Source of the DNA: an uncultured Desulfuromonadales bacterium
GTDB lineage: Bacteria; Desulfobacterota; Desulfuromonadia; Geobacterales; Pseudopelobacteraceae
Direction of reading: 5' to 3'
Assembly: GCA_903868145.1 (NCBI GenBank)
Contig: CAIPTY010000004.1
Span: 1-32,529 of the forward strand
DNA: 32,529 bases
In this document: one piece after another, positions 9,181 through 32,529 of the stretch
Position numbering within the stretch: the stretch's first letter is position 1
Layout: the number at the start of each line of letters is the position of its first letter
The notes under the pieces: model-generated
What the model was told of the DNA's origin: nothing
The model's input: only the letters and a program-made list of their open reading frames with translations
Databases searched by the model: none
Position numbers and translations under genes: made by a program

Positions 9181-10815
9181 ATGAAGATTATCGTAACGGA
9201 TGAAGTTTCGGCGGAGGGGCTTGCCCTGTTGAGCCAGGAGCCGCGTATCCAGCTGGATATCAGACTCGGGTTGAAGAAAGAGGAGCTGCTGGCGGCAATT
9301 GGCGACTACGACGTGATCATTACCCGCAGCGGCACGACGGTTGACAAGGCGGTTCTGGATGCGGGCAAGCGCCTGAAGATGGTGGCGCGGGCCGGTGTGG
9401 GCATCGACAATGTGGATGTGGACTATGCCAGCTCCAAAGGGGTCATCGTCGTCAACGCCCCGTTCGGCAACACCAACAGCGCCGCCGAGCATACCATGGC
9501 GCTGCTCCTCTCCTTCTGCCGCAATGTGACGGTGGCCAACAACAGCCTGAAAAGCGGCGAGTGGAAGCGCGCTCCCTTCACCGGCTACGAACTCAAGGGC
9601 AAAACCGCCGGTGTGATCGGCATCGGCAAGGTCGGCGGCCGGGTGGTCACGCGGCTGAAGGCCTTTGAGTGCGAGGTTCTGGCCTGCGATCCCTACATCG
9701 GAGCCAAACGCGCCCACGACCTGGGTGTCAAGCTGGTTACCCACGATGAGATCTACAAGCACTGCGACATCATCACCGTGCATACGCCCCTTACGGATGA
9801 GACCCGGGGGATGATCGGACCGCGTGAATTCGGGCTGATGAAAACCGGCGTGATCGTCCTGAATGTGGCCCGTGGCGGCATTATCGACGAACAGGCCATG
9901 CTGGACAATCTCAACTCCGGCAAGCTGATCGGCGGCGCTTTCGATGTCTGGAGCCAGGAACCGCCCGTGACGGATACCCTCAAGCATCTGATCGGCCACA
10001 AGGGTCTGGTGGTGACGCCGCATCTGGGCGCCAACACCTTTGAGGCCCAGATCAATGTCGCCATCGATGTATCAAAAGAGATCATCAGCTATCTGGATGA
10101 CCAGCCGCTGGAGAACGCGGTCAACATCCCGCGTTTCGATCTGGCGCTGATGGACCAGATGCGTCCGTTCCTGAATCTGATGAGCGTGATCTGCGATTTC
10201 GGCATCCAGCTGCTGGACAGCAACCCGGAGAAACTGATCTTCTCATATACGGGAAACATCTCCCACTACGACTGCACGCCGCTCACAGTCTGCGGCCTGT
10301 CGGCAATGCTGAACCGCATGGTCGATCAGGATGTCAATATGGTCAATGCATCCCTGATCGCAGAACAGATGGGCATTGTTGTGGAGGAAACCAAATCCAC
10401 GAACGTCGACGCTTTCTCCAACGTCCTGACCCTGATCGCCGAGGGCAACGGCAAGCGTCGCCTGATCTCCGGCACCCTTTTCGAGGGCTCGCCACGCATT
10501 GTCAAGCTGCGCGACTACACCATGGATTTCGCCCCCGAAGAACACATGCTGCTTCTGAACTACGGTGACCGCCCCGGCATGATCGGCAAGATCGGCACCA
10601 TCATGGGACAGCACGAGATCAACATCGCCTCAATGAATCTTGGGCGAAGCGAGAAAAAAGGGGAGGCGATGGTTATTCTCTCTCTTGATTCAGCCGTGCC
10701 AGTGCCTGTTCTCGACGAGATCCGGCTCGCCACGGAGGCTACGTTCATAAAAGCCCTGCACATGAGAGTCGGCAGTTGCACACGCGGCTGCGGCGCCTGT
10801 GCTCCCACACCCTGA
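9181..10815 (+). CDS. serA: D-3-phosphoglycerate dehydrogenase
   Basis: The 544-residue long-form SerA oxidises 3-phosphoglycerate with NAD+, the first step of serine synthesis. The catalytic/nucleotide-binding unit (about 1-315) carries the Rossmann loop GIGKVGG (147-153), acidic D170 for the NAD ribose, and catalytic R231 (NVARGG), E260 (SQEPP) and H281 (TPHLGAN). A regulatory insertion domain follows (about 320-450), then a C-terminal ACT domain (about 458-530, MLLNYGDRPGMIGKIG) that in other members binds serine for feedback inhibition. After the ACT domain the protein ends in a tail with C533xxxC537xxC540, which I do not recognise as part of the standard family. ATG 9181 has AAGGAG 5 nt upstream. 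The 3' end overlaps the likely lgt start. Confidence 0.97.
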   Translation: MKIIVTDEVSAEGLALLSQEPRIQLDIRLGLKKEELLAAIGDYDVIITRSGTTVDKAVLDAGKRLKMVARAGVGIDNVDVDYASSKGVIVVNAPFGNTNSAAEHTMALLLSFCRNVTVANNSLKSGEWKRAPFTGYELKGKTAGVIGIGKVGGRVVTRLKAFECEVLACDPYIGAKRAHDLGVKLVTHDEIYKHCDIITVHTPLTDETRGMIGPREFGLMKTGVIVLNVARGGIIDEQAMLDNLNSGKLIGGAFDVWSQEPPVTDTLKHLIGHKGLVVTPHLGANTFEAQINVAIDVSKEIISYLDDQPLENAVNIPRFDLALMDQMRPFLNLMSVICDFGIQLLDSNPEKLIFSYTGNISHYDCTPLTVCGLSAMLNRMVDQDVNMVNASLIAEQMGIVVEETKSTNVDAFSNVLTLIAEGNGKRRLISGTLFEGSPRIVKLRDYTMDFAPEEHMLLLNYGDRPGMIGKIGTIMGQHEINIASMNLGRSEKKGEAMVILSLDSAVPVPVLDEIRLATEATFIKALHMRVGSCTRGCGACAPTP

Positions 10816-11620
10816 CGCAATGCAGCTTCCCGCGATCGACCCCGTATTCCTGAGCATCGGCCCGCTCCAGTTCCGCTGGTACGGGCTGATGTATATTCTG
10901 GCATTTGCTGCTACCTACTTCATACTTCGCTCGGAAACCCGCCGAAAAAAACTTGCCCTGACACTCGACGATGTGGCTGACCTGCTGTTTGCGGGAGCCA
11001 TGGGGGTGGTGCTGGGCGGCAGGTTCGGCTATATCGTGTTCTACAACCTGGGATTTTATCTGGAGCATCCACTCAGGATCTTTGCCGTCTGGGAGGGCGG
11101 CATGTCCTTCCACGGCGGCTTTCTGGGCGTGATTCTGGCCTTTGTTCTCTATGCCCGCCGCAAGCAGATACCTTTTTTCACCCTCATCGACATGGCAGCC
11201 CTCTGTGCGCCGGTCGGGCTGGGGTTGGGCAGGATCGGGAACTTTATCAACGGAGAATTGTACGGGCGCAGGACGGACGTCCCCTGGGGAATCGTTTTTC
11301 CCGGCGGCGGCTCCATGGCGCGCCACCCTTCCCAGCTCTACGAAGCGCTGCTGGAAGGATTACTCCTGTTTCTGATCGTGCGCTGTGCATCCCGCCGCTC
11401 CGATGCCACCGGCGTCGCCGGCTGGACCTTTGTGGCCGGGTACGGCCTGTTCCGTTTCATCGTAGAGTTTTTCAGGGAACCGGACGCCCAGATGGGAACC
11501 TTCCTGGGCGGGTATTTCTCCATGGGACAGTTGCTGAGTCTGCCCATGTTCCTGCTGGGCAGCGTAATGGTGTTCAGGCTCTGGCGTGGGAAAGAGATAA
11601 AATCTATAAAAAGCATTTGA
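10799..11620 (+). CDS. lgt: Prolipoprotein diacylglyceryl transferase
   Basis: Lgt is an inner-membrane enzyme that transfers diacylglycerol from phosphatidylglycerol to the lipobox Cys of prolipoproteins. The product is about 273 residues with several hydrophobic helices. It carries the essential His in MSFHGGFLG (H105), and the Lgt signature GRIGNFINGELYG (144-156) including R145, N148 and E153. The GTG at 10799 lies 17 nt inside serA; an ATG at 10820, five bases after the serA stop, would shorten the product by 7 residues. Neither has a convincing ribosome-binding site, so translational coupling to serA is likely whichever is used. The nearby lipoprotein at 16784 would be one of its substrates. 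Confidence 0.95.
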   Translation: MLPHPDAMQLPAIDPVFLSIGPLQFRWYGLMYILAFAATYFILRSETRRKKLALTLDDVADLLFAGAMGVVLGGRFGYIVFYNLGFYLEHPLRIFAVWEGGMSFHGGFLGVILAFVLYARRKQIPFFTLIDMAALCAPVGLGLGRIGNFINGELYGRRTDVPWGIVFPGGGSMARHPSQLYEALLEGLLLFLIVRCASRRSDATGVAGWTFVAGYGLFRFIVEFFREPDAQMGTFLGGYFSMGQLLSLPMFLLGSVMVFRLWRGKEIKSIKSI

Positions 11621-27859: not shown

Positions 27860-29074
27860 ATGGCACTGGTAGTCCAGAAATACGGCGGCACATCAGTCGG
27901 CACGACTGATCGCATCAAAAATGTCGCCAGGCGCATCATCAAAACGTACGATGCCGGTAACGATCTGATTGTCGTCGTTTCGGCCATGTCCGGCGAAACC
28001 AATAAACTGGTGGCGCTGGCTAACGAAATCTGTGAAATTCCCGATGGCCGCGAATACGACGTGGTTGTGGCTACCGGAGAACAGGTCACCATCGGGCTGC
28101 TCGCCATGTGCCTCAAGTCCCTCGGCTACAAGGCAAAATCCTACCAGGGGTGGCAGGTTCCGATACTGACCGACTCCACAGCCACCAAAGCGCGGATCGA
28201 GAGCATCGATGATACAAACATCCGCGCCGACATCAAGGACGGCACGATAGTCATCCTGGCCGGATTCCAGGGAATTGACGCAGGCGGCAGTGTCACCACT
28301 CTAGGCAGGGGTGGCTCTGACACTTCAGCCGTGGCCATTGCAGCCGCACTTAAAGCTGATGTGTGCGAAATCTACACCGATGTGGATGGCGTCTACACCA
28401 CCGATCCCAATATCTGCAAAGAGGCACGCAAGATTGAGAGAATTTCCTACGACGAGATGCTGGAGCTCGCCAGCCTTGGCGCAAAGGTGCTGCAGATTCG
28501 CTCGGTTGAATTTGCAAAAAAATATAACGTGGACGTTCATGTCCGCTCAAGTCTCAATGAAAACACCGGTACCATGGTTACCAGGGAGGATACGGATATG
28601 GAAGGGATTCTCGTTTCAGGAGTTGCGTACGATAAAAATGAGGCCAAAATTGCGGTTATGGGTGTGCCCGACAAGCCTGGCATTGCGGCCAAAATTCTCA
28701 CCCCGCTCTCCGATGCCGCCATCTCGGTTGACATGATCGTCCAGAATGTCAGTGACGGCGGTCTGACCGATATAACCTTCACCGTGACCAAGGCGGATCT
28801 GAAACAGGCTCTCCTGATCACTAACGAAGTGGCCAGGGACATTCAGGCCCGTCAGGTTGTAGCGGATGAGAATATCAGCAAGATATCCATCGTCGGACTC
28901 GGAATGCGCAGTCATGCCGGAGTGGCAACCCAGATGTTCACTGCGCTTTCCAAAAACAACATCAATATTCAGATGATTTCCACCTCGGAGATCAAGATTT
29001 CGGTTGTCATCGATGAAAAATACACCGAGCTCGCGGTACGCGTCCTGCACGAGACCTTCGGACTTGGCGGCTGA
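27860..29074 (+). CDS. lysC: Aspartate kinase (aspartokinase)
   Basis: The enzyme phosphorylates aspartate, the first step to lysine, threonine, methionine and diaminopimelate. From ATG 27860, with AAGGAG about 7 nt upstream, the product is 405 residues; the earlier in-frame ATG at 27830 lies before that site and is rejected. The kinase domain shows KYGGTSVG (7-14), VVSAMSGETN, ATGEQVTIGLLA, GRGGSDTSAVAIAA and EIYTDVDGVYTTDP. Two ACT domains follow (about 265-335 and 345-405; VPDKPGIAAKIL and SHAGVATQMFTAL), where end-product inhibition by lysine and/or threonine is expected. It is an alpha-type single-function aspartokinase, with no homoserine dehydrogenase fused. Confidence 0.97.
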   Translation: MALVVQKYGGTSVGTTDRIKNVARRIIKTYDAGNDLIVVVSAMSGETNKLVALANEICEIPDGREYDVVVATGEQVTIGLLAMCLKSLGYKAKSYQGWQVPILTDSTATKARIESIDDTNIRADIKDGTIVILAGFQGIDAGGSVTTLGRGGSDTSAVAIAAALKADVCEIYTDVDGVYTTDPNICKEARKIERISYDEMLELASLGAKVLQIRSVEFAKKYNVDVHVRSSLNENTGTMVTREDTDMEGILVSGVAYDKNEAKIAVMGVPDKPGIAAKILTPLSDAAISVDMIVQNVSDGGLTDITFTVTKADLKQALLITNEVARDIQARQVVADENISKISIVGLGMRSHAGVATQMFTALSKNNINIQMISTSEIKISVVIDEKYTELAVRVLHETFGLGG

Positions 29075-29104
29075 CATCTAAAACCTTGCAGTTACCGAAC
29101 ACAC

Positions 29105-29141
29105 AAGGGAGTGAATTAAGCAGGTTTCACTCCCTTTTTTT
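29105..29141 (+). terminator. Intrinsic (rho-independent) terminator after lysC
   Basis: An 11-bp perfect stem pairs 29105-29115 (AAGGGAGTGAA) with 29126-29136 around a 10-nt loop, and a run of T residues follows at 29135-29141. It lies 30 bp after the lysC stop and separates that gene from the large adhesin gene. Confidence 0.93.
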
Positions 29142-29217
29142 ATTTTCTTACATGCTGATTCCTCTTTCCAGGTAGAGCGAAGATATGCTCGACAGGATCC
29201 GCCATGGAGTTTCCGCC

Positions 29218-32200
29218 GTGAATAGAGCTTTCCGTCTGATCTGGAGTGGTATCAGGGATTGCCGGGTTGTGGTAGCCGAGATCATCAGGGGTAGCGGCAG
29301 TTCATCACCTGTAGCCGTAGCCGCTTCTATTCTCAGTCTATCGACACTTCTCACGGCCACCGCCTCCCATGCCCTTCCCACCACTCCCCAGGTAATCAGC
29401 GGAACAGCAAACATCACCACCACCGGCACGTCCATGACCGTAACCAACTCGCCCAACGCCATCATCAACTGGCAGGGTTTTTCCATCGGTCAGGGAGAAA
29501 GCACCCGCTTTATCCAGCCTTCATCCACAAGCGCAGTCCTCAACCGCATAACCGGCGGCGACCCATCCCGCATACTCGGTCTGCTCCAATCAAACGGCAA
29601 GGTACTTTTGATAAACCCCAACGGCATCCTGTTCGGCCCCAACGCCAGAGTTGACGTCAACGGTCTTATAGCCTCCACCCTCAACATCACCAATCAGGAC
29701 TTTCTGGCCGGAAAGATGAAATTCAGCGCCGGGCCGATTGCGGGCGCCATAGATCATCAGGGTGCAATCACAACCCCCGGCGGCGGCCAGGTCTATCTGA
29801 TCGCCCCCGATGTCACCAACAGCGGCGTCATAACCGCACCCAACGGCGACATACTGCTGGCAGCGGGAAAAGAAGTACTGCTGGTTGACAAAGCCAACCC
29901 CGCCATGGCCACCGTAGTCAGCGCCCCGGAACATCAGGCCATAAACCTGGGCACCCTGGTAGCCGATGCCGGCCGGATAGGGGTATACGGCGGGATAGTT
30001 CGGCAGAAGGGGATCATCAGCGCCGACAGTTCAACCGTAGACGCACAGGGGCGTATCTTCTTCAAGGCCACCAGGGATATCACCCTCGAAAAGGGGAGCA
30101 TCACCACCGCCAACGGAAGCACAGGGGGTGAGATCACCATCCAGTCCCAGGACGGCACCACCCTGGTATCCGGCACAGTCAATGCCATCGGCAGTAGCGG
30201 CACAGGGGGCACGGCACATCTTCTGGGTCAATGTGTCGGTCTCATAGATCAGGGCAGCGTGGATGTATCAGGCACAACCGGGGGCGGAACCCTCCTCATC
30301 GGCGGCGATTATCAGGGCAGGAATACGGATATTCCAAACGCTCAGGCCACCTACGTCGGCAGAGAAACCACCATCAAGGCGGATGCCACTGACAACGGCA
30401 CCGGCGGCAGGGTGATTATCTGGTCTGACGACACCACCCGTGCATTCGGCAGCATCAGCGCCAAAGGAGGAGCAAACGGCGGCACAGGCGGCTTTGTAGA
30501 GACTTCGGGCAAACGGGCGCTGGATATTACCGGCATCAGGGTCGATGCCTCAGCCCAAAGTGGTACTAATGGCAAATGGCTGCTTGACCCCTCCGATGTA
30601 ACAATCAACCACGGTTCCACCGGAACCCTCACGGCAGGATTATTTGATCCCGCCACCACCTCCAGCATCGGGGACACCGAAATAAATGCCGCACTCAACG
30701 GCGGCACCGACGTCACCATCCAGACAACCGGCGGCAGTGGCGGCACGGGCATCATAACAGTGAACGGCACTGCCGACAGCGGCGGCGCAGTTGCCATCAC
30801 CAATACCACCGGCGGTACACGTAACCTTACCCTCACCACGGCAGGCACCATCAACATCAACTCAGGGGCCAGCATCGCCGGTTCAACCAACAATTCACTC
30901 AACGTTATCCTTGATGCTGCAGGAGGAAGTGCCCTCACCGGTGATTTCTGGGTCAATCCGAACAGCAACCTTACGATCCGCAACGGATTGACCTTGAACA
31001 ATGGCAGGGTCTATCTGGGAGACGGCGTCACAAATGCTGCCAGCAACATTGAATGGGACGGCACTCAGACCATAGGGGGAAACGGAGAGATCATCCTTAA
31101 CACATCTGGTGGCGCTAACCTGATTACAAACCACCCTACGGGAGTCTGGACGTTGACCATAGACAGCGGTGTGACTGTGCGTACAGCCATGCCGGGCTGG
31201 TTTGTTGTTGGCAACTATGGCTCGACACCGGACAACATAATTAACAAAGGTACTTTGCTGGCGGATGTCACCGGTTCAACGCTCTTCATCTCAGCGCCGG
31301 GGACGCTTACAAACAACGGCACGCTGAGGGCAACTTACGGACTCTTGCAGTTCAGCAATCTGAGCAACACCGGTATCATCCAGATCGACGCAGGCGGCAG
31401 CATCGGCACGTACGACACCGCGTTCACCAATAGCGCGAGCGGCATAATCAGGGGAAGCGGAAGCTTTTTCATCGGTGACTTTCCCAGCAATGGCATACTC
31501 ACTAACAACGGCACCATCAGTCCGGGCGATGCCACGACCACGGGTACACTCAACATAGCAGGAAACCTGGTCAACAACGGCACGATCACAGCGAAGATCG
31601 GCGGAACGGCAGCAGGGCAATACGATGTACTGAATGTATCGCGCGACGTCACCCTCGGCGGAATACTCAATGCCAGTACTATAAATGGGTATTCTCCGGC
31701 AAACCTTGATTTCGTACCCTTCCTGACGACGACCGGCACATCCACCGGCACATTCGCGTCGCTGAGTGTACCGGCAGGGTTTTCCGCCGGTTACAACCTT
31801 GCGGCAAGCGAAGCATCGCGGATGGTCTATTCTGCCGGAGCAAAGATATTTACCAACGCTTCAGGCGGATTAACATGGGAGACCCCCGGCAACTGGAGTG
31901 GCTCAATACTGCCCGGAACGACCGACGACGTCCTGCTCAGCTCCGGGTACGCAGTCAACCACGGCATCGGCAACGACACAATAGGCACTCTCACCATAAA
32001 CAGCAGCAACTCCCTGAACGTGTCTGGCGGGTCGCTCAGCGTGACCAGCGCCACTACAGTGGGTGGCACATTGACCACATCCGGAGGTACGCTGAATCTG
32101 AACGGCGCAATTGCCAACAGCGGAACCCTTGCTGTATCGGCAGGCACCCTAAACCTGGGGGGCAGCATCACCACCTCCGGCCTCGGCAATCTGGTCGGCA

Positions 32201-32529
32201 CGGGTGGCGCGACGCGCCTTACCGGGACACTGCTGAACACGGGAAGTACGCTGACCTTGAACAACACGACCGGAAATCTCGACATCGTCGGCACGGTAAC
32301 CGGCGGTACGCTGGCGGTAGCCAGCGGCAGCACATCCAAGTATCTCAGCACCAACGGCACGTTTGATGGTGTAACCCTGGCTGGCAATCTTCAGGTCAAT
32401 CCGAACAGCAACCTTACGATCCGCAACGGATTGACCTTGAACAATGGCAGGGTCTATCTGGGAGACGGCGTCACAAATGCTGCCAGCAACATTGAATGGG
32501 ACGGCACTCAGACCATAGGGGGAAACGGA
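29218..32529 (+). CDS. Filamentous hemagglutinin-type two-partner-secretion exoprotein (TpsA), 5' part
   Basis: The frame is open from 29218 to the window edge (1104 codons, no stop), so the gene is truncated here. The start is GTG 29218, with GGAG 8 nt upstream, giving MNRAFRLIW, the start pattern of the extended signal peptide region (ESPR) of type V secretion. An in-frame ATG at 29185 has no such site. The hydrophobic core runs to ATASHA, with cleavage expected at about residue 52. The TPS domain follows (about 53-170), with NWQGFSIGQGE, RILGLLQSNGKVLLINP and NPNGILFGPNARVDVNG (133-149). Further on are GGFVETSGK (424-432) and WLLDPSDVTI (454-463), common in HxuA/FHA-like passengers, then Gly/Thr/Asn-rich beta-helix strands with repeated NNGTL/NNGTI turns. 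Export needs a TpsB pore, not in this window. It is probably an adhesin or surface filament; its ligand is unknown. Confidence 0.93.
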   Translation, partial: MNRAFRLIWSGIRDCRVVVAEIIRGSGSSSPVAVAASILSLSTLLTATASHALPTTPQVISGTANITTTGTSMTVTNSPNAIINWQGFSIGQGESTRFIQPSSTSAVLNRITGGDPSRILGLLQSNGKVLLINPNGILFGPNARVDVNGLIASTLNITNQDFLAGKMKFSAGPIAGAIDHQGAITTPGGGQVYLIAPDVTNSGVITAPNGDILLAAGKEVLLVDKANPAMATVVSAPEHQAINLGTLVADAGRIGVYGGIVRQKGIISADSSTVDAQGRIFFKATRDITLEKGSITTANGSTGGEITIQSQDGTTLVSGTVNAIGSSGTGGTAHLLGQCVGLIDQGSVDVSGTTGGGTLLIGGDYQGRNTDIPNAQATYVGRETTIKADATDNGTGGRVIIWSDDTTRAFGSISAKGGANGGTGGFVETSGKRALDITGIRVDASAQSGTNGKWLLDPSDVTINHGSTGTLTAGLFDPATTSSIGDTEINAALNGGTDVTIQTTGGSGGTGIITVNGTADSGGAVAITNTTGGTRNLTLTTAGTININSGASIAGSTNNSLNVILDAAGGSALTGDFWVNPNSNLTIRNGLTLNNGRVYLGDGVTNAASNIEWDGTQTIGGNGEIILNTSGGANLITNHPTGVWTLTIDSGVTVRTAMPGWFVVGNYGSTPDNIINKGTLLADVTGSTLFISAPGTLTNNGTLRATYGLLQFSNLSNTGIIQIDAGGSIGTYDTAFTNSASGIIRGSGSFFIGDFPSNGILTNNGTISPGDATTTGTLNIAGNLVNNGTITAKIGGTAAGQYDVLNVSRDVTLGGILNASTINGYSPANLDFVPFLTTTGTSTGTFASLSVPAGFSAGYNLAASEASRMVYSAGAKIFTNASGGLTWETPGNWSGSILPGTTDDVLLSSGYAVNHGIGNDTIGTLTINSSNSLNVSGGSLSVTSATTVGGTLTTSGGTLNLNGAIANSGTLAVSAGTLNLGGSITTSGLGNLVGTGGATRLTGTLLNTGSTLTLNNTTGNLDIVGTVTGGTLAVASGSTSKYLSTNGTFDGVTLAGNLQVNPNSNLTIRNGLTLNNGRVYLGDGVTNAASNIEWDGTQTIGGNG
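30951..31086 (+). repeat. Direct repeat, copy 1, inside the TpsA gene
   Basis: These 136 bp are identical to 32394-32529. They encode residues about 579-623 of the exoprotein (VNPNSNLTIRNGLTLNNG to QTIGGNG). The upstream boundary is sharp at DNA level: the base before the match differs between copies, though the protein remains similar for a few residues more. Confidence 0.97.
32394..32529 (+). repeat. Direct repeat, copy 2, inside the TpsA gene (cut by window end)
   Basis: This copy is identical to 30951-31086, with an offset of exactly 1443 bp (481 codons, frame kept). The match continues to the last base of the window, so the full repeat is longer than 136 bp and may be a tandem 481-residue passenger module. 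Confidence 0.97.

Follow-up and report, generated by a model that had tools for sequence, protein, structure and literature searches.

The giant exoprotein gene that runs off the end of the window (the whole 32,529-nucleotide stretch analyzed here, which is also the whole of contig G000:C4 in a genome of 3,798,100 bases and 103 contigs) appears to contain a tandem array of 481-codon units, in which one part of the unit (the A module) was homogenized long after the other part (the B module) had diverged. In its full form, this reading holds that contigs C4 and C1 of the genome are one locus, that A was homogenized inside a tandem TpsA array, that the repeat broke the assembly, and that the modules are segments of a beta-helical rod; we place the probability of this joint account at roughly 0.75. 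Feature coordinates are given in Table 1.

Table 1. Features of the exoprotein gene at the end of the window (window positions)
Feature	Position	Strand	Comment
tpsA exoprotein gene, 5′ part	29185..32529	+	ORF of 1115 codons, open at contig end
ESPR (extended signal peptide), residues 13-60	29221..29364	+	PF13018, 1.9e-06
TPS secretion domain, residues 59-279	29359..30021	+	PF05860, 6.4e-28; TIGR01901, 1.1e-23
First copy of the 136-bp repeat, opening unit 1 (A module)	30951..31086	+	
Unit 1, 481 codons, in frame	30952..32394	+	As translated; unit 2 starts with the codon at 32395
A module, 267 codons, predicted beta-helix	30952..31752	+	Putative homogenized tract, 30951-31751
Exact 102-bp match to positions 1 to 102 of G000:C1, closing the unit-2 A module	31650..31751	+	
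B module, 214 codons	31753..32394	+	86% DNA identity to unit-2 B on contig C1
Second copy of the 136-bp repeat, opening unit 2 and truncated by the contig end	32394..32529	+	

Judged from its sequence, the protein is a giant TpsA (two-partner secretion) exoprotein of the filamentous-hemagglutinin kind, because an ESPR and a TPS secretion domain stand at its N terminus. The TPS domain scored above both cutoffs, with 98.8 bits for PF05860 (cutoff, 33.5) and 82.9 bits for TIGR01901 (cutoff, 29.1). A TpsB partner is encoded on contig C1 (L005 3187-4797; ShlB, 3.9e-21; POTRA_2, 1.1e-15), and, provided that C4 and C1 are connected as argued below, export of the window TpsA through this pore is predicted.

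The first-pass annotation had described a perfect 136-bp repeat at a frame-preserving offset, and its values proved exact: the two copies agree at all 136 bp and lie 1443 bp (481 codons) apart in the same frame. It was equally right that the copies follow different sequence, as the bases immediately 5′ of them are unrelated (10/20 and 18/60 matching). Because of this unrelated sequence (18/60 bases), the left border of the identity can be equated with the module edge. The second copy does match up to the window end, and it stops at 32529 because contig C4 stops there. In a Pfam search, the 481-residue unit matched no family at its cutoff. TRF detected no array in window 29000-32529; the longest period that it tested was 500, so it is blind to a period of 1443 bp. 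A mobile element or short tandem array was rejected as the cause of the repeat, given no TRF array at periods of ≤500.

Reading beyond the window, as had been advised, led to the continuation of the gene on contig C1, with a diverged B module and a third A module. A search of the genome with window 30951-32529 retrieved three matches, namely, the window itself and two on C1. Positions 1 to 102 of C1 are identical to window 31650-31751, and from position 103 C1 tracks window 31752-32393 at 552/642 bases (86%); C1 carries the final 743 bp of another unit, comprising the end of an A module and a B module. The B-to-A junction of the window end is seen again, diverged, at C1 744/745. A third unit, aligned to the repeat start, runs from C1 745 and consists only of an A-like module (58% amino acid identity to that of unit 1). 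A tail of Cys-containing 19-residue repeats closes the exoprotein frame, which terminates at 2428, and the stop codon is followed by a FecR-domain gene and then by tpsB. With no Pfam or NCBIfam family found in 808 residues of the C1 exoprotein part, and with Cys-rich 19-residue repeats at its end, a toxin-tipped exoprotein was rejected. The tail itself is a 57-bp (19-residue) repeat array (L005 1696-2043) with the pattern CT..P..PGC; by analogy with HMW1 and HxuA, as treated in a review (PMC5422565), it could act as an anchor.

That the exact 136 bp and 102 bp at the edges of C4 and C1 both map to one A module speaks for a link between these contigs. In addition, the genome encodes five TPS N termini and five ShlB proteins, and the C4 tpsA and C1 tpsB genes are the only ones left unpaired once neighbors and the C36/C7 and C100/C35 pairs are removed. 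We infer that a single locus is split between C4 and C1, and its array would be at least A-B-A-B-A. The gene would then measure at least 589 + 481 + 481 + 560 = 2111 codons if there is exactly one second unit. The assembly covers unit 1 in full, unit 2 except for a 563-bp gap, and part of a third unit. Thus, the earlier proposal that the repeat belongs to a long tandem array stands as regards tandem units in a giant exoprotein gene, whereas "long" goes beyond what is assembled.

Units 1 and 2 can be compared at the 879 of 1443 columns visible in both. The visible A columns are identical throughout (238/238), while the B modules, which share 90% of their amino acids, differ by 90 mismatches in 642 columns (641 within the 879). 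With columns treated as independent, the hypergeometric probability that none of the 90 mismatches falls in the 238 A columns is 7e-14, on which basis chance was rejected as the source of the A identity. The B mismatches are distributed 13/13/64 over codon positions 1/2/3 (dS, 0.47; dN, 0.06), so the B modules have long been under purifying selection. Identity in A includes third positions, which argues for recent homogenization. In the second A copy, the central 563 bp (equivalent to window 31087-31649) did not turn up in any contig of the genome, and because this stretch is unseen we infer, rather than observe, identity over 801 bp of A; the right border would lie at the A/B boundary, and the identity would form a single tract of ~801 bp. 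Within B, a low-mismatch patch (window 31885-32148; 11/264) was matched by 0/5000 base shuffles and 0/5000 codon shuffles, and the units are therefore mosaic. Such block-wise identity fits the traces that conversion or crossing-over between units would leave.

We propose that the repeat marks where a 481-residue module begins, that this module recurs in tandem in the TpsA exoprotein, and that gene conversion or crossing-over within the array would have brought units 1 and 2 to identity over ~801 bp of A, well after the B modules parted. Conversion or exchange inside the array appears to fit better than one recent whole-unit duplication, because visible A is identical while B has a dS of 0.47; a single whole-unit duplication as the sole event was rejected on these same values (zero differences in the visible A columns). 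The first-pass annotation had offered recent duplication or gene conversion; the recency is borne out for A, and conversion appears the better fit of the two. A variant that keeps the recent whole-unit duplication, with an array N-(A-B1)n-A-B2-A3 containing further identical, collapsed A-B1 copies, is unlikely. Identical copies are not countable by assembly, and C4 and C1 leave room for additional A-B1 units, but duplication alone fails: the A before B2 ends in 102 bp equal to unit-1 A, yet B1 and B2 differ at a dS of 0.47. Conversion or exchange is thus needed even with extra A-B1 copies.

An exact repeat longer than the reads would also have broken the assembly at this point. We compared 45 of the 206 contig ends (55 taken, 10 reading N left out). 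Three pairs of ends share exactly 141 bp, the overlap expected from a de Bruijn assembly run at k = 141, which is usually the largest k in MEGAHIT. The end overlaps of C4 and C1 are 136 and 102 bp, unlike 141; thus, no simple fork in the graph accounts for the break, and too few reads probably crossed the repeat at the largest k. Other overlaps differing from 141 were shared by the C100 end with C36 (66 bp) and by the C35 start with C7 (99 bp), and the C2 end has a near match with C7. Pieces of tpsA also lie on C36, C7, C100, and C35, and contig ends interrupt three of this genome's five tpsA genes (C4/C1, C36/C7, and C100/C35). The shortest contig is 1503 bp among the 31 with length seen, so contigs below ~1500 bp were probably left out. 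That a diverged middle is missing from the contig set therefore proves little, and a diverged A middle may have been lost with such a contig.

It is quite unlikely that the perfect identity was partly made by the assembler, either by merging similar A modules or by extending contig ends with reads from the wrong copy. Pointing that way, the repeat copies meet contig edges, the edge lengths of 136 and 102 differ from the 141 at other ends, and the tpsA loci of this genome are often broken at contig ends (3/5). Against it, the arrangement of the unit was found independently on C1, with diverged B and A and the same junction, and the 136-bp and 102-bp edges would need reads joining them to unit-specific sequence. 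Because the arrangement recurs on C1, tandem units do exist, whether or not the identity is truly exact; the earlier concern that the second copy is an assembly artifact is weakened to that extent. A mixture of strains with different arrays, with C4 and C1 drawn from different variants, is very improbable: the contig set seems to resemble a metagenome bin (none under 1503 bp among 31 seen), but the listed contamination is 0.92%, and the balance of five TPS N termini and five tpsB genes is what one strain should show.

For the A module, AlphaFold2 gave a confident beta-solenoid (pLDDT, 86.6; pTM, 0.87), and for the whole unit it gave a moderate model (pLDDT, 75.7; pTM, 0.59) with residues 278-324 under 50. 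The A module is thus a predicted beta-helix, and the beta-helical body that defines a TpsA protein is, by prediction only, present in it. Foldseek returned no match at E ≤ 0.001 for the A-module and whole-unit models (best E, 0.05 and 0.0013), and a PDB sequence search with the unit retrieved no chain at E ≤ 1. When the A module was compared with 163 chains by VIA-align, TpsA secretion domains ranked near the top. The top match was a gut-metagenome beta-helix (7jvi; Z, 16.9), and the TpsA matches included HMW1 (Z, 16.3; rmsd, 4.8; 234 aligned), the EtpA secretion domain (Z, 16.1; rmsd, 4.8; 238 aligned), and HxuA (Z, 14.8; rmsd, 4.3; 225 aligned). The common fold of the A module and TpsA domains says nothing of function. 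By analogy with such proteins, the modules may serve as beta-helical segments extending a rod-like exoprotein that is exported via the TpsB pore, with each unit adding perhaps ~8 nm if EtpA proportions apply (481 × 25/1469).

The N-terminal part of the protein is widespread, occurring in 26 of 57 genomes (its own included) and at 78 named loci, and its best named match (70%) is an uncultured Geobacteraceae record; the source is probably a relative of Geobacter. The unit is rare: it was retrieved from 1 of 56 other genomes in one search (G043; 37% amino acid identity) and from 3 of 75 other genomes in a second (G093, G065, and G078; 40 to 46%), and it was absent from the three other same-genus genomes searched. 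Against a named genome collection, the unit protein gave 92 pattern matches, of which 0 were confirmed, and a plasmid search with the unit retrieved two Variovorax records at 16% coverage. An A-like stretch lies directly 5′ of a B-like stretch in G093, G065, and G078:C455, and A-B is for this reason an older pair. In these same three, no near-identical tandem copy was seen; the frame reaches a contig edge in several relatives.

Long internal repeats are present in some of the other tpsA genes examined (e.g., 994 bp at 85% in G021), and the G011 tpsA gene is among those with short internal repeats only. A 4174-codon tpsA gene of G016 (L122, G016:C23) contains two exact 127-bp repeat pairs at ORF positions 10553-11167; 127 is a common assembler k, and these repeats may be an assembly trace. 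Elsewhere in the window's own genome, two other tpsA genes have C-terminal parts on C35 (L149, 1-1214) and C7 (L129, 329-1530) that are 92% identical over 1.2 kb and contain repeats of their own, and L149 1323-2884 (C35), near the end of another tpsA gene, is strongly repetitive, with many overlapping self-matches at 70 to 79%. In a single-contig relative (L114, G004:C1), two tpsA genes stand side by side, with 2119 and 2241 codons; each matches the window N-terminal part at 68%.

A TpsA exoprotein built of tandem modules is an already known way of making rod-like proteins. EtpA, an adhesin of enterotoxigenic Escherichia coli, has three 228-residue repeats and a partial one of 219 residues, which together make up a continuous beta-helix within a ~25-nm rod (PMC11463764). 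Like EtpA as described there, the window exoprotein is a TpsA protein in which tandem modules come after an N-terminal TPS domain, its beta-helix being predicted. Unlike the 228-residue EtpA repeats, the module here has 481 residues in two parts (A and B), and, in contrast to EtpA, no ligand is known for it. CdrA of Pseudomonas aeruginosa is also a TpsA protein. Its repeats, which are MBG_2 domains (PMC9704523), differ in number between strains, and for the "Periscope Proteins" high DNA identity between repeats has been proposed as a driver of recombination and repeat-number change (PMC8201768, PMC9704523). The window gene resembles CdrA and the "Periscope Proteins," in the form in which these papers present them, in that near-identical modules follow one another in a protein of the surface or matrix (PMC8201768, PMC9704523), and it is unlike CdrA in that its unit matches no Pfam family at cutoff. 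"Periscope Proteins" are delimited by tandem repeats of >50 residues with high identity between repeats (PMC9704523); the 481-residue units fall within these limits, with visible A DNA identical at 238/238 and B at 90% amino acid identity, the third A reaching only 58%. The A module is predicted to fold alone, and its beta-helix would be continuous, versus the chain of globular domains in "Periscope Proteins." FHA (FhaB) of Bordetella, which belongs to the same secretion class, is a long beta-helix built from tandem repeats, and TpsA repeats are called imperfect in the same review (PMC5422565). Unlike repeats so described, half of the window unit is identical between two copies where visible. 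A literature search found no paper on two-partner secretion that combined internal repeats with gene conversion.

These results add a mosaic, internally homogenized tandem array in an environmental two-partner secretion exoprotein; such arrays have mostly been described from pathogens, and the window exoprotein lies outside these. They also call for caution, since short-read assemblies misstate the length of such proteins, as the three of five tpsA genes cut by contig ends here illustrate. High DNA identity between modules would make the gain and loss of units possible. A more tentative scenario, which we regard as doubtful, is that A acts as a recombination module: through identical A blocks, diverged B modules would be added to the array, dropped from it, or reordered. 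One population might then hold rods varying in length and B content, and the sister tpsA genes (C36/C7 and C100/C35) might also trade modules. If unit number varies within populations, this locus would offer a simple system in which rods vary in length outside a host.
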